A model generated the notes under the pieces. The model did no database searches. It was not told where the DNA came from and saw only the letters and a list, made by a program, of their open reading frames with translations. The position numbers and the translations under genes were made by a program. Positions 4,001 through 12,378 of a DNA stretch of 64,000 bases are shown piece by piece. The first letter of the stretch is position 1. Each line of letters starts with the position of its first letter. Source of the DNA: Magnetococcales bacterium (GTDB lineage: Bacteria > Pseudomonadota > Magnetococcia > Magnetococcales > Magnetaquicoccaceae). The stretch spans positions 1 to 64,000 of the forward strand of contig JADGAZ010000006.1 of the NCBI GenBank assembly GCA_015231755.1, given 5' to 3'.

Positions 4001-4782
4001 TTTTCGCGGAGATGGGGGGGATGCGTTCCTGGCATGCCTTTCCACGGGGGGCCAAGGCAGGCACCTTTTTGCACGAGTTGCTCTCCTGGTGCGCGTTGCA
4101 GGGGTTTGCGCGGGTGGTCGCCAACCCGGAAGGGTTGCGGGAGGTGGTGGCCCGGCGTTGTCAGCCTCGGGGCTGGAGTGGCTGGAGCGATGTGGTGACC
4201 CTGTGGCTGCTGCGGATTGTGTCCACACCGTTGGATTTTTCTGCCTTGACCGGCGAGCCGGACAGCCTGTGCCGCCTGATGGATCTGACCACCTGTCAGG
4301 CGGAAATGGAGTTTCTGGTGGCGGCCCGACGGGTTCGGACCGGGGAGATCGATCGGCTGGTGTGTGCCCATACCTTGCGCGGAGCGGAGCGTCCCGGCGT
4401 GGCGGAGCAGGTGTTGCATGGCATGCTGAAGGGGTTCATGGATTTGGTGTTCGAGTACCGGGGGCGGTATTTCGTGCTGGATTACAAATCCAATCACCTG
4501 GGTTGGGAGGATCGGGCCTACGGCGGGGAGAATCTGTGCGCCGAAATGCTCCAGGCCCGCTATGAGTTGCAGTATGTGTTGTATCTGTTCGCCTTGCATC
4601 GCCATCTTCAGGCGCGGTTGCCGGATTATGATTATGATCGCCACATGGGTGGGGCGATCCATTGGTTTGTGCGGGGGCTGGAGGCTCCGGGGCAGGGGGT
4701 GTTCGTGGATCGACCCTCCCGGCAACTGTTCGAGGCGTTGGATGGGCTGTTCGACGATCTCCAGCCGGAGGAGCAGCCATGA
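1033..4782 (+). CDS. recB: RecBCD subunit RecB: helicase-nuclease
   Basis: RecB is the 3'-5' helicase and only nuclease of RecBCD, which processes double-strand ends for recombination and destroys foreign linear DNA. The 1,249-residue product has a UvrD-type Walker A (ASAGTGKT, residues 25-32), Walker B with DEFQDTDP near 412, GDPKQAIYSFRGAD, and the late helicase motif VHKSKGLEYP. The C-terminal nuclease domain shows GTFLHELL near 1010 and the catalytic LDYKSN near 1150, so it looks active. The ATG at 1033 is preferred over an in-frame ATG at 1009 because GAGGGG lies just upstream and the homology starts right after it. It overlaps the recC stop by 8 bases and recD by ATGA. Confidence 0.95.
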   Translation: MAEGMLPVELDPLRFALRGRHLIEASAGTGKTYTIALLYVRLVLGHGEAREGVVRPLTPPEILVVTFTKAATRELRDRIRVRLSEAAACFRADAGDATGDKAGERPGEKSGDKALLALRGEYPSDSWPGCARKLQLAAEWMDEASVETIHGWCNRMLREHAFDSDSLFTQQLEADQGELLAEVVRDYWRVFLAPLTLEPAREAYACWPHVGVLQEKVRRLLRHTEGINDGQTDPPAAILEEGLVIKRRLAAMKPDWRIWVPELRGLLDRAVAAKQVDGRKIQARYYGPWLNALEQWAQDPAPSLLVLSDTAWQRLTQDGLAEAWKRDAPPEHPALRALMVIRREQAGLARNGHRLLGHAAGWIAERFAAEKAGRALMEFDDVLQRLDAGLRGPNGARLAGIIRQQFPVALIDEFQDTDPLQYRIFDTVYPDHTGEGDGTALILIGDPKQAIYSFRGADIHTYLLARRLPPARIHTLKTNHRATTAMVAAVNRLFSSAEGRGGAGAFLQRGSDGANPIPFVAVEAQGRGDVFMVDQEIPPAMTVWWSEDSLAAMAEACAGEMVRLLTLGQSGRAGFAGPDALWRPVAPSDMAVLVNGRKEFEAMRVALGARGVRCVYLSDKESVFQTPRAVELRHWLAACAAPEDPKRIRAALATGILGLGWDEIDALSRDEGLLDRRIRQFRVYQECWRRQGVLPMLRRLMHDFRVPERLLGEGWSGEADGERVLTDLLHLAELLQKNSAAREGEQALIRDLDQQIRDGERGAEEEGERLMRLESDADLVRVVTVHKSKGLEYPLVFFPFAASCRPVSSRDLPTVWRDAQGEARLAFDDPDGAVIGQLDRERLREDVRKLYVALTRARYATWVGIVVTGGSGGFDKSAIRHLLTSQEKLTIEELAPLLTALNHPGSPILAAPAPAPEPLRFQPVEQRQAIGGARRVRRVVREGWWIGSYSAINTPAGRIAGVEAPESPGEDLFRELGWGREEGQPDEEAVFAEMGGMRSWHAFPRGAKAGTFLHELLSWCALQGFARVVANPEGLREVVARRCQPRGWSGWSDVVTLWLLRIVSTPLDFSALTGEPDSLCRLMDLTTCQAEMEFLVAARRVRTGEIDRLVCAHTLRGAERPGVAEQVLHGMLKGFMDLVFEYRGRYFVLDYKSNHLGWEDRAYGGENLCAEMLQARYELQYVLYLFALHRHLQARLPDYDYDRHMGGAIHWFVRGLEAPGQGVFVDRPSRQLFEALDGLFDDLQPEEQP

Positions 4783-6893
4783 TGACCCCATTCGATATGC
4801 TCGCGCTCCTGGCCCGTTGGCAGAAGTACTCCTGGTTGCGGCCCATGGATGTGGCTTTTGCCGGTTTTTTGCAGGAGATGGCCCCGGCCTGCGATCCGTG
4901 GTTGTTGCTGGCCGCGGCCCTGGTGAGCCATCAGGCCGGGCGGGGACATGTGCAACTGGATCTGGGGGCGGTGCTGGTCCATCCGGAGTTGGCCCTGGCC
5001 ATTCCCCCGGAAGGGGTCCGAGTCCCCGAGCTTCGGGATCCGGATCGGCCCGACCGGGTGTTGGCCGGATTGGACCTGAAACGCTGGCAGGACGCCCTCG
5101 CCTATCCCGTAGTGGTGCAGTGGGATTCCGGCGGCGAGGAGGCCAGCAACACCCCGTTGGTTTTCCATCGGAATTGTCTGTATTTGCGTCGCCATTGGCA
5201 GTGCGAGCGGGAGGTGCGTGCGGGTCTGGCGTGGCGTCTGGCCATGCCGGTCACGCCGATGCCCCAGGCCGGAGCGATCCGACGGATTCTCGATGGGCTG
5301 TTGCCCACCCGTACCGGGTTGGGTGAGCGTGCGGACTGGCAAAGAATGGCCTGCTCCCTCATGGCCCGCAGCCGGTTCGGGGTGATCACCGGCGGGCCGG
5401 GCACCGGCAAGACCACCACCGTGGTCCGGCTGTTGGCCCTGTTGCAGCTTCTGGCCCTCGGCGGGCAGCCGGAAGGGGAGAGAGAGTCGGGAGGCAGGCC
5501 GCCGCGTCCGTTGCGCATCCGTCTGGCCGCGCCCACCGGCAAGGCGGCGGCCCGTTTGAGCGACTCCATCACCGGCGAGATCGACCGTCTGGCCCGAACG
5601 GGTCAGGGGTGGGGAAAAGAGACCGATCTGGCCATTCCCCGTCAGGTGACCACCTTGCACCGCCTGTTGGGAGCGCAGCCGGAGAGCCGTCATTTTCGCC
5701 ACAATGCCACCCATCCGTTGTGGATCGATGTGTTGGTGATCGACGAAGCCTCCATGGTGGGGCTGGAACTGATGGCCGATGTGCTGGCCGCGCTTCCGGC
5801 CTCGGCCCGCCTGTTCTTGTTGGGGGACCGGGACCAGCTCGCTTCGGTGGAGGCCGGTTCCTTGCTGGGGGAGTTGTGTCAACGGGCGGTGGCCGGGCAC
5901 TACACCCCGCAGACCGCCCTTTGGTTGCAGGAGTCCACGGGACACCCGCTGGAAGACGAGCGGATCGATCCGGAAGGGACTCCTTTGGATCAGGCGGTGG
6001 TGATGCTGCGGCGCAATTTTCGTTTTTCCGAGTCGAGCGGCATCGGTCGGCTGGCTCAGGCGGTCAACACCGGGGATCCGGATGCGGTGGCGGCCATCTG
6101 GAATCAAGGCTATGAGGATCTGGCGTGGTTTGCCATGGCCGAACAGGAGGCGTTGTTCGCGGCTTTGGTGGTCGATGGGGTGGAGGTGGTGAATTCGGTG
6201 GTGGTGGCCTCTTCCAGAGGCGGAGAGTATGCCGCCCGTCGGGGGGGGTATCGGGGATATCTGGCCTGTGTGCGGGAGCGCAGACCGGCGCTGGAGGCGG
6301 GACCCGAGGCGTTTGATCACTGGGCGACCGAGGTGGCTTGCGCCCATGGGGGATTTCAGGTGTTGTGCGTGTTGCGTCAGGGTCCATGGGGGGTGGAGGG
6401 GTTGAACGGACGCATTGCCCGCCATTTGCGGGAGGCGGGATGGATCCCGGGGGGCCGGGAGTGGTATCCGGGCCGACCGGTGATGATCACCCGCAACAAT
6501 CATGAACTGGGGCTGATGAACGGGGATATTGGCATCACCCTGGAGCGGCCCGTGGAGGGGCAATGGACCTTGCGGGTGGCGTTTCCCGGCAAGAGTGGCA
6601 CGGATGAGACGGTGCGCTGGTTTCCGCCGAGCCGTCTGTCCCACGTCGAGACGGTTTTCGCCCTCACGGTTCACAAGTCCCAAGGCTCGGAGTTCTCCCG
6701 CGTGGCGCTGGTGCTGCCCGATCACCCCACCCCGATCCTCACCCGCGAACTGCTCTACACCGGCATCACCCGCGCCCGTGATGGCTTTGTGCTGGCCTGC
6801 GCCGGGGATCGCTCTCTGCTGCAACAGGCGGTGACCCGCCGCGTGACCCGCGCCGGTGGCGTGGTGGCAGGCGAAGGGGGGGGATTGGGGTGA
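4779..6893 (+). CDS. recD: RecBCD subunit RecD: 5'-3' helicase
   Basis: RecD is the fast 5'-3' SF1 helicase of RecBCD. The 704-residue frame carries Walker A GGPGTGKTT near residue 205, PTGKAAARLS, TLHRLLG, Walker B VIDEASMV, GDRDQLASVEAGSLLGEL, and the C-terminal VHKSQGSE and LLYTGITRAR motifs. This is the complete and ordered RecD1 set at normal length. The ATG at 4779 overlaps the recB stop as ATGA, which suggests translational coupling. The upstream frame extension lies wholly within recB and is not used. About 280 bases with no clear gene follow before the next CDS. Confidence 0.95.
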   Translation: MMTPFDMLALLARWQKYSWLRPMDVAFAGFLQEMAPACDPWLLLAAALVSHQAGRGHVQLDLGAVLVHPELALAIPPEGVRVPELRDPDRPDRVLAGLDLKRWQDALAYPVVVQWDSGGEEASNTPLVFHRNCLYLRRHWQCEREVRAGLAWRLAMPVTPMPQAGAIRRILDGLLPTRTGLGERADWQRMACSLMARSRFGVITGGPGTGKTTTVVRLLALLQLLALGGQPEGERESGGRPPRPLRIRLAAPTGKAAARLSDSITGEIDRLARTGQGWGKETDLAIPRQVTTLHRLLGAQPESRHFRHNATHPLWIDVLVIDEASMVGLELMADVLAALPASARLFLLGDRDQLASVEAGSLLGELCQRAVAGHYTPQTALWLQESTGHPLEDERIDPEGTPLDQAVVMLRRNFRFSESSGIGRLAQAVNTGDPDAVAAIWNQGYEDLAWFAMAEQEALFAALVVDGVEVVNSVVVASSRGGEYAARRGGYRGYLACVRERRPALEAGPEAFDHWATEVACAHGGFQVLCVLRQGPWGVEGLNGRIARHLREAGWIPGGREWYPGRPVMITRNNHELGLMNGDIGITLERPVEGQWTLRVAFPGKSGTDETVRWFPPSRLSHVETVFALTVHKSQGSEFSRVALVLPDHPTPILTRELLYTGITRARDGFVLACAGDRSLLQQAVTRRVTRAGGVVAGEGGGLG

Positions 6894-7084
6894 TCGGTGT
6901 TGGTATTGGAGGGGGTGGGGTGGTAGGATGGTTGGGATGAAAGCAACGTGAAGCGGTTCTTGCGCTACAGTTGCGCCCGAATTCTGGAAAATGTGCCGAA
7001 AATGGTCCAGAATGTGGTTAAAGATGGGTAAATCTCATTGATTTTAAGGAAGGAATAGGTCAATCAGACGCCAAGCCGCTCCGC

Positions 7085-7146: not shown

Positions 7147-7175
7147 TCTGTTGGGGGACTCAAGGAGGTACACCC

Positions 7176-10007
7176 ATGAACGAATATCAGGGTATGCGTT
7201 GGTTCAAATGCGATCTGCATGTTCATACGCCAGCAGATCCACAGCATTGGCAAGGCTCCCCCATCGTTCCCGGCCAGGAGTCACTGAGCGCCACAGAGTT
7301 TGCGGAGGCGTGCCATCAAACTGGATTGGATGCGATTGCCGTCACGGATCACAATTTCCTTAGTAAAGACTTTTTGCCCTATCTCAAGGATGCATTGGCT
7401 GAGATCGAGCATAAACATGGACACAAGATAATACTGTTTCCAGGATTCGAATTTGAAGCCGATGTTGGAAAAGGCATGCATGTACTTTGTCTTTTTGAAC
7501 CGGATACGAATCTGTTGACAATTGACCATATTTTGACGGAATGTGGGGTTTATCTCCCAAGAGTTCAGGATGGCAGACTCCAGAAGTCGGTTAAGAGGTT
7601 GCCTGAGATTCTTGGTATTATTCAAAAGGGAAATGAGCAATCGGGATGGCGTGGGATTGTGATTGTCCCGCATGTTTTTGAAAACAGTTTATTTGATAAT
7701 GACCGGATCAGCGAATGGCTGCAACAAGAAGAATTCATCAATCCTGATCTTTTGGCGGTTGAAGTTCCGAAACCCGTCGAAAGAATGGGAACGAATTTTA
7801 AAAAATTGTTTCGTTCAGGATCAGATTGTGATCCCGGATGGCGACGATCTCGCCCCATTGCCACCTTAATGGGGTCTGACAATAAAAAGCTGATCGAAAA
7901 AGATGCATCAGGCCGACCGGTAGCCAACAGTTTGGGTTATCGGTACACCTGGATCAAGATGTCGAAACCGTCCATCGAGTCGTTGCGACAGGCCTTCCTG
8001 GATCCGGATTCCCGTATCCGTCCATCTGGAGACGATCCATCCAGTCAGGAAAAACACGCGCGCATCTTGTCTCTGTCGGTAAACAATGCCGCTTTCCTGG
8101 GGAATCAGCAAATCGTTTTTTCTCCCAATTTTAACGCCATCATTGGCGGTCGCGGCAGTGGCAAGTCGGCGATCCTGGAAGGGATGCGTCTGGCCATGGG
8201 CAAGGACGATGATCCAAAGTTGGATGACAGAGCCAGGGAGAAGGTCAGGCGCATCCGGGAGTTGTTGACAAAGAATGCTGGTTCCCAAGTGCGGGTCCAT
8301 TGGCGTGATGCTGACGGAGTGGAGGATCATCTGCTTTACGTGGTAACACAAGCAGGCAATGGTTCCTGCCGCGTTGCGGATCGATCCATGCAGGATCTCT
8401 CTTCCTTTCTGAGTGATCTGCCGGTGCAATTTTTCAGTCAGCAGCAGTTGAATCAGATCACGGAACGAGGTGGAAATGTGCTATTGACCCTCCTGGATGA
8501 ATTCTCCAGAGAGGAACTGAAACCTTTGTTGCAAAAGGAATCCGAACTGCGACGTGAGATTGGGCAACTCTTCACATCCACGGCCATTCTTGAGCAAACG
8601 GACAAGGATCTGAGTCGTCTGCAACAAGAAAGTGCCGACCTGGAACGGCAATGGGAGGCCCGTTCCGCCCTTCAGGAGGATGCCCGCAAACATCAAGGAC
8701 TCAAAGCAGAACAAGCCTATATTCAAAAAATGAAAAGCGCTTTGGAGGAGGATTTTGTTCGTTTGACAGATGTGGCGAACGATATTTACGAAACGCATGT
8801 AGACTTGGGATCGATCATCGAACGATGGCCTCACGGAGCGTGGTTCCAGGAAAAGAATGAGCGGATTTTACAAGCCAAGGAAATCCTGAAAGACACCATT
8901 GGCCAAGCGGTGGAAACCTGCCGCAAGACTGTTTCCGAGATGTTTGGAGGCGATCCGAAATGGCCTGACATCGAACAGCAGTTTGAACAAGCCGATGCGA
9001 CGTTTGCCCAGGCTTGCGCGGCCAAGGGTATTGATCCCGCAGATGTCAGTCGGATTCAGGAAATTGGCCAGAAGAGAACCTTCAAAAAGCAGGAACTGGA
9101 ACAGAAGAAGAAAGAACGTCTCCGGTTGCAACAGCTTCTGGGAAAGATGCCGGAATTGTTCCAGCAACTGCATGCCAATTGGTTGGCCTGTCATGAGGTT
9201 CGCAAGCGCGTCGCCGATGAGATCGTGCAAGCTGCTAAGTCTGGTAGCAAGTCGGTGATCGGATTGATGGTATCCTATTTTTCAGATGCGGTTTCATTTA
9301 AAACGGTTTGGAGAAAATTAAAGCCAAAAGGCACTACTCGGTTGGGACGAAACTGGGAAGAAATTGGGGAAATTTTCCGAGAAGAGTATCTGAATGGTGG
9401 GTATGGCGACCGTGCTTCCTTATGGTTCATTTTGCAATCCTGGATGGAATCCGAAGAAACCATGCCAGCCAGGTTGCAAACAGAACTTGGGAAACTTCAG
9501 ATTTCTATGACAGAAATCAAATTGCATTTTTCTGATACTGTACGTCAGGAGTGGCAGGAAACGCAACTGATTCGTATCGACGACACAGTGGATCTTGTGT
9601 TGTACCAAAGCAATGGTCATGACGAGGTTGGTCGGGTTTCGGATGGCACTCTTTCCGATGGTCAACGTAATACAGCGGCTTTGGCCATGTTGTTGGCCAG
9701 AGGGAATCATCCTCTGGTTATTGACCAACCGGAAGACGAGTTGGATTCCAATTTTATTTTCCAGGAACTGGTTCCCATGCTGCGTCGATTGAAGCATTCC
9801 CGACAGATCATCCTGGTCACCCATAACGCCAATCTCCCCGTCAACGGAGATGCCGACTTGGTGTATGCGCTTAAAGCGCAGGGTGGGCATGGCGTCAAAC
9901 GCGCTACAGGAGGATTGGATCGGGCGGATGTGACCCTGGCAGTTCTGGACATCATGGAGGGATCTGAACAGGCTTTTCGCCAGCGTAAAGAAAAGTACCA
10001 TTTCTGA
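7176..10007 (+). CDS. PHP-domain / SMC-like ATPase, probable antiphage protein (Ppl/TrlF-like)
   Basis: The 943-residue product starts with a PHP phosphoesterase domain: CDLHVHTP near residues 12-19, AVTDHN near 57, FEFEAD and VPHVF follow as candidate metal ligands. An SMC/RecF-type ATPase follows: Walker A GGRGSGKS near 325, FSQQQLNQI near 425, a long charged helical stretch of about 430-720 that looks like a coiled coil, a signature LSDGQRNT near 826, Walker B VIDQPEDELDSN near 849, and an H-loop VTHNANL. This PHP-plus-ATPase layout matches, from memory, the single-gene Ppl defence system and the TrlF family name; neither was checked. The start is fixed by AAGGAGGT at 7162-7169. Base composition is lower in GC than the flanking rec and sbc genes, which suggests transfer. 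It is followed after 14 bases by an AlbA_2/GHKL gene. Confidence 0.85.
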   Translation: MNEYQGMRWFKCDLHVHTPADPQHWQGSPIVPGQESLSATEFAEACHQTGLDAIAVTDHNFLSKDFLPYLKDALAEIEHKHGHKIILFPGFEFEADVGKGMHVLCLFEPDTNLLTIDHILTECGVYLPRVQDGRLQKSVKRLPEILGIIQKGNEQSGWRGIVIVPHVFENSLFDNDRISEWLQQEEFINPDLLAVEVPKPVERMGTNFKKLFRSGSDCDPGWRRSRPIATLMGSDNKKLIEKDASGRPVANSLGYRYTWIKMSKPSIESLRQAFLDPDSRIRPSGDDPSSQEKHARILSLSVNNAAFLGNQQIVFSPNFNAIIGGRGSGKSAILEGMRLAMGKDDDPKLDDRAREKVRRIRELLTKNAGSQVRVHWRDADGVEDHLLYVVTQAGNGSCRVADRSMQDLSSFLSDLPVQFFSQQQLNQITERGGNVLLTLLDEFSREELKPLLQKESELRREIGQLFTSTAILEQTDKDLSRLQQESADLERQWEARSALQEDARKHQGLKAEQAYIQKMKSALEEDFVRLTDVANDIYETHVDLGSIIERWPHGAWFQEKNERILQAKEILKDTIGQAVETCRKTVSEMFGGDPKWPDIEQQFEQADATFAQACAAKGIDPADVSRIQEIGQKRTFKKQELEQKKKERLRLQQLLGKMPELFQQLHANWLACHEVRKRVADEIVQAAKSGSKSVIGLMVSYFSDAVSFKTVWRKLKPKGTTRLGRNWEEIGEIFREEYLNGGYGDRASLWFILQSWMESEETMPARLQTELGKLQISMTEIKLHFSDTVRQEWQETQLIRIDDTVDLVLYQSNGHDEVGRVSDGTLSDGQRNTAALAMLLARGNHPLVIDQPEDELDSNFIFQELVPMLRRLKHSRQIILVTHNANLPVNGDADLVYALKAQGGHGVKRATGGLDRADVTLAVLDIMEGSEQAFRQRKEKYHF

Positions 10008-10021
10008 AACGGACAACATCC

Positions 10022-11332
10022 ATGTATGAATCCACTGATGAATTGATGCGCGAAATACTCGCGGGTGAGGACACCTACCTGGAATTCAAGGAGGTGGTCT
10101 TCCGTGGAGACCAACCCCGTTTTGCCAACGAGGAAGGCCGCGCACCCAAAATGATCGCAGAAGTTTTCGTGAGCATGGCCAACACCGAAGGCGGGAGCGT
10201 GGTATTTGGTATCAACAAATTCGGGGAGGTGGTGGGTATCGACCCTGACAAACGCAACCTCCTGGAACAATGGGTGGTCAACTGTGCCTTGGACTCTTGT
10301 GAGCCAAAAGGCAGCCTGGAGCCGCGATTGAATTGGCGTTATCTGCCAAACCTTGATGGTGTGGACAAGTTGGTCTTGCATCTCGATGTTCCAAAGTCGC
10401 GTTATTATGTTCATCACACGTCGGATGGAAAATTTTTGAAACGGGTTGGCAGTCATCGCACCCCCATTCCTGCGGAGCAACTTGGGCGTTTACTGGCGAC
10501 CAGAAGCTTGTTGATGCCCTTCGAGGAACGTCCTTGTCCTGGCACGTTGCTGGACTCGTTTAATCGGGAACGGTTTGATGCCTACTATACGAGACGCTTT
10601 GGTTCCCCATTGCGTGAAAGCGGCGTTCCTGTCGAGCGGTTACTGGAAAATTTGAAGTTGGGGCTGAGGATGGATGATGGTTCATGGCGTTTGACCAATC
10701 TTGGGGTTCTATTGTTCACGGATCGTCCACAAAACCACCTGACGGGTGCTTACATCGAAATCGCCATGCACGATCATGCGGTGGCCGATGGAAATACTTT
10801 GGATGTCAAACGTTTTGAAGGACCGGTCAGCAATCAAATTGAATCCGTGCTCGATTATCTTCTGAAAAGCCCTTTTCTCGCCATCCGTTCTGAAAAAACC
10901 GCCTTGGGGCGAGTGGATAAACCTGCCTATAGCGCACTGGCCGTTCAGGAAGCAATCGTCAATGCCGTGGTCCATCGTGACTATGAATTGACGGGTTCCC
11001 AGATCATCATCAACGTATTTCCTGACCGATTGGAAATCAGAAATCCGGGTTTCCTGCACAATACCCTGAAGCCGGAAGACCTGTACGCCGGTTGTCAGCC
11101 TATGCGACGTAATCAGCATTTGTCTGGTTTTTTCCGTGATTTTCCCAGCCCTGTTAACGGACGCAGCCTGATGGAGGCACGAGGCGTGGTTTTTCTCTCT
11201 TTGGTACGGGAAAGCATGGAGCTGTCCGGTCGCACTCCTTCCTTTGAAGTGATTGGTCAAGGGATCAAATTGACCATCTTTGCGGGAGGAGTGGATGCGG
11301 ATCGGATGATCACAGAGTCTCGGGGTGAGTAA
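10022..11332 (+). CDS. AlbA_2 (Schlafen-like) protein with C-terminal GHKL ATP-binding domain
   Basis: The 436-residue product opens with an AlbA_2 (former AAA_4) domain at about residues 10-150: GEDTYLEFKE, then VSMANTEGGSVVFGI, FLKRVGSHRTPIP. The C-terminal half has the HATPase_c_4 pattern ALAVQEAIVNAVVHRDYE near 315 and PDRLEIRNPGFL near 340. Proteins of this COG2865-like type are common in defence islands and mobile regions; their biochemical role is mostly unsettled. It lies 14 bases after the PHP-ATPase gene, so the two are almost certainly cotranscribed. It shares that gene's lower GC content. I infer a partner or regulator role in the same system. Confidence 0.85.
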   Translation: MYESTDELMREILAGEDTYLEFKEVVFRGDQPRFANEEGRAPKMIAEVFVSMANTEGGSVVFGINKFGEVVGIDPDKRNLLEQWVVNCALDSCEPKGSLEPRLNWRYLPNLDGVDKLVLHLDVPKSRYYVHHTSDGKFLKRVGSHRTPIPAEQLGRLLATRSLLMPFEERPCPGTLLDSFNRERFDAYYTRRFGSPLRESGVPVERLLENLKLGLRMDDGSWRLTNLGVLLFTDRPQNHLTGAYIEIAMHDHAVADGNTLDVKRFEGPVSNQIESVLDYLLKSPFLAIRSEKTALGRVDKPAYSALAVQEAIVNAVVHRDYELTGSQIIINVFPDRLEIRNPGFLHNTLKPEDLYAGCQPMRRNQHLSGFFRDFPSPVNGRSLMEARGVVFLSLVRESMELSGRTPSFEVIGQGIKLTIFAGGVDADRMITESRGE

Positions 11333-11451
11333 CCAGCCAGCAGCGGCATGACTCGACCCGTTTTCGCTTCAATAGGGTCCATTTGACACGGCGTTCTTGC
11401 GGAACCTGGAGAGTGATTTCGTTTTATTGTTTGTCTCGGAGATGATGCCCC

Positions 11452-12378
11452 ATGACCCGTGATGCAACCATGCCGTTGATTGTGGCGATCTCTTCCCGGG
11501 CGTTGTTCGATCTGGAGGCCAGCCACGCGGTGTTTTGTGAACAGGGAGTGGAGGCGTATGCCCGCTGGCAGATCGAACGGGAGGAAGAACCCCTGAAGCC
11601 GGGGCCGGCTTTTCCTTTGGTGCGCAAGCTGCTGGCCTTGAACCGGCTGGATCCGGCCCTGCCCAGCCGGGTCGAGGTGATTCTGCTCTCCCGCAACAGC
11701 GCGGATACCGGTTTGCGGGTGTTCAACGCCATCCGGCACCATGGGTTGGAGATCACCCGGGCGGTTTTCACCACCGGTGGCAACCTTTGGCCATACGCGG
11801 CGGCGTTTCAGGCCCATCTGTTCTTGTCGCTGGATCCGGAAGACGCGCGGCTGGCTTCCCAGGCCGGATTGGCCGCGGCGGTGATTCTGGCCCCCGGTGG
11901 GGAGTCGGTGTCGGAGGCGGGCAACAGTCCGTTGCGCATCGCTTTCGACGGGGACGCGGTGCTGTTTTCGGATGCGTCGGAGCGGATCTATCAGGAGCAG
12001 GGATTGGCCGCCTTTCAGGAACACGAAGCCCGCACCGCCCGAGAGCCTTTGCCGGAAGGGCCGTTCAAGCCGTTCTTGGAGGCGATCCAGCGGATTCAAC
12101 GTCTGCATCCGGTCCACTGCCCGATTCGCACCGCTTTGGTCACCTCGCGGGGGGCGCCGGCCCACGAACGGGTCATCCGCACCTTGCGGGCCTGGGACAT
12201 TCGGGTGGATGAGCTGCTGTTTTTGGGGGGAAGGGACAAGGGATCGTTTCTGGCCGCCTTCGGGGCCGATATCTTCTTCGACGATCAGACCGGACATTGC
12301 GAGTCGGTGCGCCGTTTCGTTCCGGCGGGTCATGTGGTGCGGGGTGTCACCAATCCGATCGGATCCGGTGCTGCATGA
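11452..12378 (+). CDS. 5'-nucleotidase (NT5C1/PF06189 family)
   Basis: The 308-residue protein matches the cytosolic 5'-nucleotidase family PF06189: LIVAISSRALFDLE at the N-terminus, SRNSADTGLRVFNAI near 82, FTTGGNLWPY near 104, IAFDGDAVLFSD near 164, LVTSRGAPAHERV near 228 and DIFFDDQTGHCE near 275. These enzymes dephosphorylate nucleoside monophosphates using HAD-type Asp residues. It overlaps sbcD by ATGA. A role in clearing nucleotides released by SbcCD or RecBCD digestion is inference from the operon only. The ATG at 11452 follows a GGAGATGATG stretch. Confidence 0.88.
   Translation: MTRDATMPLIVAISSRALFDLEASHAVFCEQGVEAYARWQIEREEEPLKPGPAFPLVRKLLALNRLDPALPSRVEVILLSRNSADTGLRVFNAIRHHGLEITRAVFTTGGNLWPYAAAFQAHLFLSLDPEDARLASQAGLAAAVILAPGGESVSEAGNSPLRIAFDGDAVLFSDASERIYQEQGLAAFQEHEARTAREPLPEGPFKPFLEAIQRIQRLHPVHCPIRTALVTSRGAPAHERVIRTLRAWDIRVDELLFLGGRDKGSFLAAFGADIFFDDQTGHCESVRRFVPAGHVVRGVTNPIGSGAA

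Follow-up and report, generated by a model that had tools for sequence, protein, structure and literature searches.

Introduction

The nearest worked-out precedent for the locus described here is Ppl, a single-gene anti-phage PHP exonuclease/ATPase (PMC12904381). Single-gene PHP-ATPase systems of this kind are thought to unite the sensor and the killing activity in a single chain. A second point of reference is a 2026 survey that reports fusions of Schlafen RNases with a minimal histidine kinase and a winged helix-turn-helix domain in BREX loci, in a text that mentions neither PHP nor TrlF (PMC12839542). For TrlF, which is a family name only, our literature search found no relevant functional paper under that name. 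Here we describe a pair of genes in a contig of a Magnetococcales bacterium, where trlF, encoding a PHP domain and an SMC/Rad50-like ABC ATPase with a coiled coil, is followed by a gene for a Schlafen-like AlbA_2/GHKL protein (AlbA2, the partner). The stretch analyzed, 64,000 nt in length, is referred to as the window, and its genome is labeled G000 (W) in comparisons.

We consider it probable that the pair is a horizontally acquired two-gene cassette directed against mobile genetic elements, most likely phages, with an exchangeable PHP module. We favor a role against mobile elements because of the match to the TrlF family model NF045780, the intact ATPase motifs, the foreign GC content, the insertion sequence (IS) remnants, the existence of an empty site, the recurrent partnership, the relatives embedded in BREX and in helicase-methylase-ATPase (Hma) systems, and the exchange of the PHP module.

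Results

A foreign insert downstream of recD

All coordinates refer to the window, and its features lie on the forward strand. The genes trlF (7176-10007, 943 amino acids) and albA2 (10022-11332, 436 amino acids) share this strand and are separated by 14 bp, and both open reading frames (ORFs) and their domains agree with the initial annotation, which had described a PHP/SMC-like ATPase followed at 14 bases by an AlbA_2/HATPase_c_4 protein. Its assignment of the first gene to a "Ppl/TrlF type" held for TrlF and failed for Ppl: the product scores 542 bits against the NCBIfam model TrlF_fam_ATP (NF045780, cut-off 350) over residues 6-942 of 943, and 239.6 bits against the Ppl model NF042955, which has a cut-off of 1000, so that membership of Ppl was rejected on score (the PADLOC Ppl match is 7e-52). 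The pair is, as had been noted, lower in GC than the rec and sbc genes, with 0.491 for trlF and 0.513 for albA2 vs. 0.648 for recB, 0.664 for recD, 0.640 for the 5′-nucleotidase gene and 0.640 for sbcD, and sbcC falls in the same 0.64-0.66 range as the other flanking genes. The described nesting between recBCD and sbcDC needs amendment: recB and recD do lie upstream and sbcD and sbcC downstream, but a 5′-nucleotidase gene (11452-12378; PF06189, E 5e-121), previously unmentioned, intervenes, and the interval is thus bordered by recD (4662-6893; RecD_N/AAA_19/UvrD_C_2 domains) and this gene rather than directly by recD and sbcD.

Comparison of the recD-sbcD interval in relatives, as the initial annotation had proposed, revealed sites that lack the pair. 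In G010, a member of the same genus, the 5′-nucleotidase gene follows directly after recD with ~140 bp between them, and in G004 recD adjoins sbcD; the 5′-nucleotidase gene adjoins sbcD also in G010 and G009. Given the empty interval in G010 and the transposase fragments on both borders, the pair, whose composition is foreign, is an insert at a site common to G000 and G006, and was probably acquired horizontally. The alternative that these are core genes of the site was rejected on the empty sites in G010 and G004.

The left border (6940-7031) retains the final ~30 codons of an IS transposase; they match, at ~96% identity, the 3′ end of a longer and decayed copy that G006 has at its own left border. 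The right border (11298-11390) is formed by 93 bp from the interior of this transposase, 86-87% identical to a transposase-internal stretch of G006, and the last codons of albA2 extend into it. We tentatively take the transposase to be IS1182-like, from reading its translation by eye and not from a database match. A search of the window for direct repeats flanking the insert returned short, chance-like repeats only. Between recD and trlF, ahead of the transposase copy, G006 carries a 321-amino-acid ORF that the window lacks (L049 13977-14942, minus strand, G006:C70); it opens with the same 18 bases (ATGACCCGTGATGCAACC) as the 5′-nucleotidase gene of the window, possibly reflecting a duplication of the target region.

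Exchange of the PHP module

The DNA of G000 and G006 is ~96% identical across recB/recD, most of trlF, albA2, the 5′-nucleotidase gene and sbcDC, and this similarity breaks down between positions 7238 and 7919. At the protein level the two share 32% identity in the PHP core (residues 21-235), compared with 95% in the ATPase and 99% in the partner, whereas the window PHP core is 96% identical to that of G003 and the ATPase just 84%. In pairwise comparison of 51 TrlF proteins, ATPase identity exceeded PHP identity by the widest margin for W and G006. Approximately unbiased tests rejected the grouping of W with G006 in the PHP tree (p = 1.8e-74) and that of W with G003 in the ATPase tree (p = 4e-4), and the synonymous divergence (dS) between W and G003 is 0.177 in the PHP domain vs. 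0.28 in the adjoining ATPase.

The divergent stretch, a type A PHP cassette (7238-7919; GC 0.457), is preceded by a constant anchor (7176-7237, residues 1-20, with the metal motif H15-x-H17) that is conserved in the window clade; over the 60 bp that start at 7157, identity to G006 is 98%. The exchange junctions fall in conserved anchors, one being residues 1-20 and the other the stretch around residues 245-262; both are in frame, and each PHP type is found in at least one further genome. On these sequence comparisons, the event is a recent in-frame recombinational exchange of a PHP nuclease module of ~0.7 kb that left the ATPase and the partner unchanged. The PHP domain of G006 is 57-66% identical to those of G036, G013, G012 and G002 and its ATPase about equally so (61-69%); G006 therefore looks vertically inherited, and the window PHP looks to have been acquired, apparently from a G003-like lineage.

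Outside the cassette, a second variable patch (9276-9563, residues 701-796) has a nonsynonymous divergence (dN) of 0.30 and a dS of 0.65 against G003, compared with 0.02 and 0.29 in the next segment. With dN/dS values of 0.10 for PHP (W-G003), 0.23-0.29 for the ATPase and 0.07-0.09 for the partner, all three modules are under purifying selection. A third type A PHP domain, truncated, without the ATPase part and 64-67% identical, is present in G021 (L059 8719-9252, G021:C93), and could be left over from another exchange or represent a copy that has decayed. The solo TrlF proteins of L098 and L109 display the reverse kind of mosaic, with 62% identity in PHP and 26% in the ATPase.

Distribution and genomic context of the pair

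A survey of the phylum covering 399 genomes gave 31 TrlF matches above the NF045780 cut-off, and an albA2 gene was adjacent in 21 of them. A survey starting from the partner, covering 80 named loci from several bacterial phyla and one archaeon, found TrlF at or near it in roughly 37, an approximate count given that some contigs end inside the neighborhood and a few trlF genes are not directly adjacent. Co-occurrence of the two genes is thus not rare. At the remaining partner loci the neighbors are instead an SNF2 helicase with an N6/N4 methylase, an AAA_15 ATPase or an Eco57I methylase; AlbA2 as an exclusive partner of TrlF was rejected on this ground, and the varied company suggests that AlbA2/GHKL is a shared component of defense type, commonly used with TrlF among other settings. 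The first of these arrangements, seen in marine gammaproteobacteria (L151, L131, L135, L147), is possibly a further defense operon.

Several relatives of the pair lie within known defense systems. In G012, from the same family as the window genome, the gene order BrxC-PglX-AbiU-PtuA-x-TrlF-AlbA2-PglZ places the pair inside BREX, and in L142 the order HmaA-HmaB-TrlF-AlbA2-HmaC places it inside Hma; Hma-like genes are also found near it in L134, L141 and L166, and other pairs have PtuA, MADS, Wadjet JetC (L136) or type III methylase genes nearby. Neither BREX nor Hma core genes adjoin the pair in the window, where the flanks are the rec, 5′-nucleotidase and sbc genes. Among the relatives examined, the pair is near rec/sbc in G000 and G006 only, and in G003 it lies on a contig other than those of recD and sbcD. 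The PADLOC and NCBIfam libraries used do not list TrlF with AlbA2 as a system. TrlF relatives occur on many viral contigs, with the partner also present at 1 of 51 such loci, and phage and plasmid records held distant partner relatives only, below 30% identity among the matches listed; a phage-borne origin of the pair was rejected on these results.

Domains and motifs of TrlF

A probable Shine-Dalgarno sequence (AAGGAGG, 7163-7169), read directly from the sequence, precedes trlF. Pfam assigns SMC_N/AAA_23/AAA_21 domains to the ATPase parts of the product and reports no PHP domain at E<=1e-3; evidence for PHP comes from the TrlF and Ppl models, which match from residue 6 onward, and from the pattern H-x-H, D-H, E, H, H, D. 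A match to PADLOC mad3 (9e-21) was also recorded. The AlphaFold2 (AF2) model has a mean predicted local distance difference test (pLDDT) score of 84.7, and its best Foldseek matches are SMC, RecN, RecF, Rad50 and JetC heads.

The ABC/SMC ATPase motifs are intact. Walker A (8145-8168, residues 324-331) has G324, G329, K330 and S331 invariant in 48/48 TrlF proteins; the coiled-coil arm (8508-9233, residues 445-686) appears as long helices in the AF2 model; and the stretch at 9651-9746 comprises the ABC signature LSDGQ (residues 826-830) and the Walker B/D-loop DQPEDELD (residues 850-857), in which S827, G829, D850, Q851 and E853 are likewise invariant, as is H883 further on. For the PHP metal site we compared TrlF with the canonical residue set; the candidates kept in the window protein are H15, H17, D58-H59, E92, H102, H166 and D235, the last read by eye as its column is off by one in the automatic alignment. 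A shorter TrlF-like ATPase without PHP (~650 amino acids) is also present in Magnetococcales, with several copies in G027 (G027:C1; L027, L123).

The Schlafen-like partner

The partner carries SLFN_AlbA_2 (PF04326, E 4.6e-13) and HATPase_c_4 domains, both over the Pfam cut-offs, and its AF2 model (pLDDT 85.8) returned 3lmm as the best Foldseek hit, followed by Schlafens (E 5e-6 to 1e-3). Within the SLFN_AlbA_2 domain (10067-10465, residues 16-148), E16 and E21, the counterparts of rat SLFN13 E205 and E210, are invariant in 42/42 relatives. The position of the Schlafen catalytic Asp is occupied by D in 34 of these and by K in eight, namely L125 together with all seven Magnetococcales sequences of the window clade, so that the Glu-Glu-Asp triad of Schlafen RNases is incomplete in the window partner, where K66 (10217-10219) replaces the Asp. 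The GHKL-like HATPase_c_4 domain (10994-11275, residues 325-418) has an N-box-like motif immediately ahead of it (EAIVNAVVHRDY, residues 310-321), of which E310, N314, H318, R319 and D320 are invariant in the same 42 relatives; the glycine boxes look atypical, and GHKL-type ATP binding is a prediction only. In G003 the albA2 gene is split at residue ~270 over two contigs (L051 end, G003:C74; G003:C75:146303-146785), consistent with a later insertion.

Discussion

In the mechanism that we propose for the pair, TrlF would take the central role. Some nucleic-acid feature of the invader would be bound by its SMC/Rad50-like ATPase head and coiled coil, and an ATP-dependent rearrangement would then, by analogy with Ppl, free the fused PHP metal nuclease to act. 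The Schlafen-AlbA_2/GHKL partner would be co-expressed as a second component. Most relatives keep all three Schlafen catalytic acids, and there it may be a backup RNase; in the window clade, with Lys in place of Asp, binding of nucleic acid or a nucleotide and regulation of TrlF are its likelier roles, or it could be weakly catalytic. Recombination between conserved anchors would allow the PHP domain to be swapped in frame with the ATPase and partner left unchanged, and, under pressure from phages, the swap seen here probably changed the recognition of a substrate or an inhibitor.

A bolder proposal, which we advance tentatively and regard as possible rather than probable, is that TrlF with AlbA_2/GHKL constitutes a distinct, undescribed two-gene defense module, occurring alone or within BREX and Hma operons, in which PHP is a recombinational cassette exchanged like restriction specificity domains and shifting the target range of the same chassis. 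If true, a swap of the PHP cassette lets one ATPase-partner chassis change its target range. The operons of G000 and G006, near-identical and differing mainly in PHP, offer a ready-made experiment on what sets the target, and the recurrence of the partner, together with the presence of the pair inside BREX and Hma, suggests a shared backup module.

Other explanations for the pair can be weighed against the same evidence. The partner could be catalytically active as a Schlafen-type RNase and abort infection by cleaving tRNA, TrlF being the sensor, as would fit the two invariant Glu residues, the Asp kept in 34/42 relatives, the Schlafens returned by the fold search and the naming of such proteins as Schlafen RNases in the BREX survey (PMC12839542); however, the Lys in the window clade and L125 makes this unlikely, each of the three acids being needed for full activity of SLFN13, where mutation of any of them diminished it (PMC5862951). 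We give a somewhat smaller chance still to a Wadjet-like system acting on plasmids or DNA topology rather than on phages. It would draw on the SMC-like head, on JetC among the Foldseek matches and on the JetC gene near the pair in L136, but no JetA/B/D-like partners were seen at the window, the layout is Ppl/TrlF-like, and relatives sit inside phage-defense operons.

A role outside defense, as an accessory to DNA repair or as a self-regulated operon with AlbA_2/GHKL as its transcription regulator, might be read from the adjoining repair genes and from the Pfam description of HATPase_c_4 as a putative RecG C-terminal domain; the patchy, mobile distribution, the relatives inside BREX and Hma and a domain exchange typical of conflict systems render it improbable. 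The initial annotation had raised the idea that the pair guards RecBCD or SbcCD; in this view we would expect it to watch over them in the manner of Gabija or OLD nucleases, which monitor RecBCD. Systems that monitor RecBCD do have precedent (PMC12904381), and the position between recD and the 5′-nucleotidase gene and sbcD in G000 and G006 would suit such a role, but we rejected it as a default because relatives carry the pair elsewhere (on another contig in G003, inside BREX in G012). The IS remnants moreover account for the position as an insertion, and we regard guarding as the most improbable of these alternatives. The fixed AlbA_2 partner that had also been suggested fared better, in that the pairing recurs across many phyla, but 10 of the 31 TrlF matches lack an adjacent partner. 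That annotation did not note the PHP exchange, the clade's loss of the Schlafen Asp, the transposase remnants or the relatives that lie within BREX and Hma.

Several points weigh against a horizontally acquired defense cassette with an exchangeable PHP module, the reading that we prefer. The genes directly flanking the insert are repair genes and not defense genes, the ten TrlF matches just mentioned imply that the partner is not obligatory for the family, and the defense role is deduced from sequence and genomic context. All seven members of the window clade carry Lys in place of the final canonical His of the PHP domain, and the PHP nuclease of the window TrlF could be weak. RNase activity of the window partner is doubtful, since the clade has Lys in place of the catalytic Asp. 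The exchange itself is drawn from three genomes (G000, G006 and G003), and nearly all of the assemblies concerned are drafts.

Set beside known systems, the pair shares with Wadjet, Lamassu and MADS an SMC/Rad50-like head and the mad3 match, but no JetABD, LmuAC or MADS gene set adjoins it. Hma resembles it in the L142 arrangement, where the pair stands between HmaB and HmaC, and differs in that the window locus has no Hma genes. The Schlafen-kinase proteins of BREX (PMC12839542) have the same AlbA_2 and GHKL layout, and relatives of the window pair occur inside BREX, whereas the window copy stands with TrlF outside BREX and its clade has lost the catalytic Asp. Ppl, which is characterized by a 3′-5′ ssDNA exonuclease activity licensed by NTP depletion, is alike in domain order and in a partial model match; in contrast, the window pair has two genes, a score far under the Ppl cut-off and, throughout its clade, no last canonical PHP His. 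The TrlF family itself is matched over the full length, with both PHP and an SMC-like ATPase, and what sets the window copy apart is its coupling to an AlbA_2/GHKL gene and a PHP module that has been exchanged.

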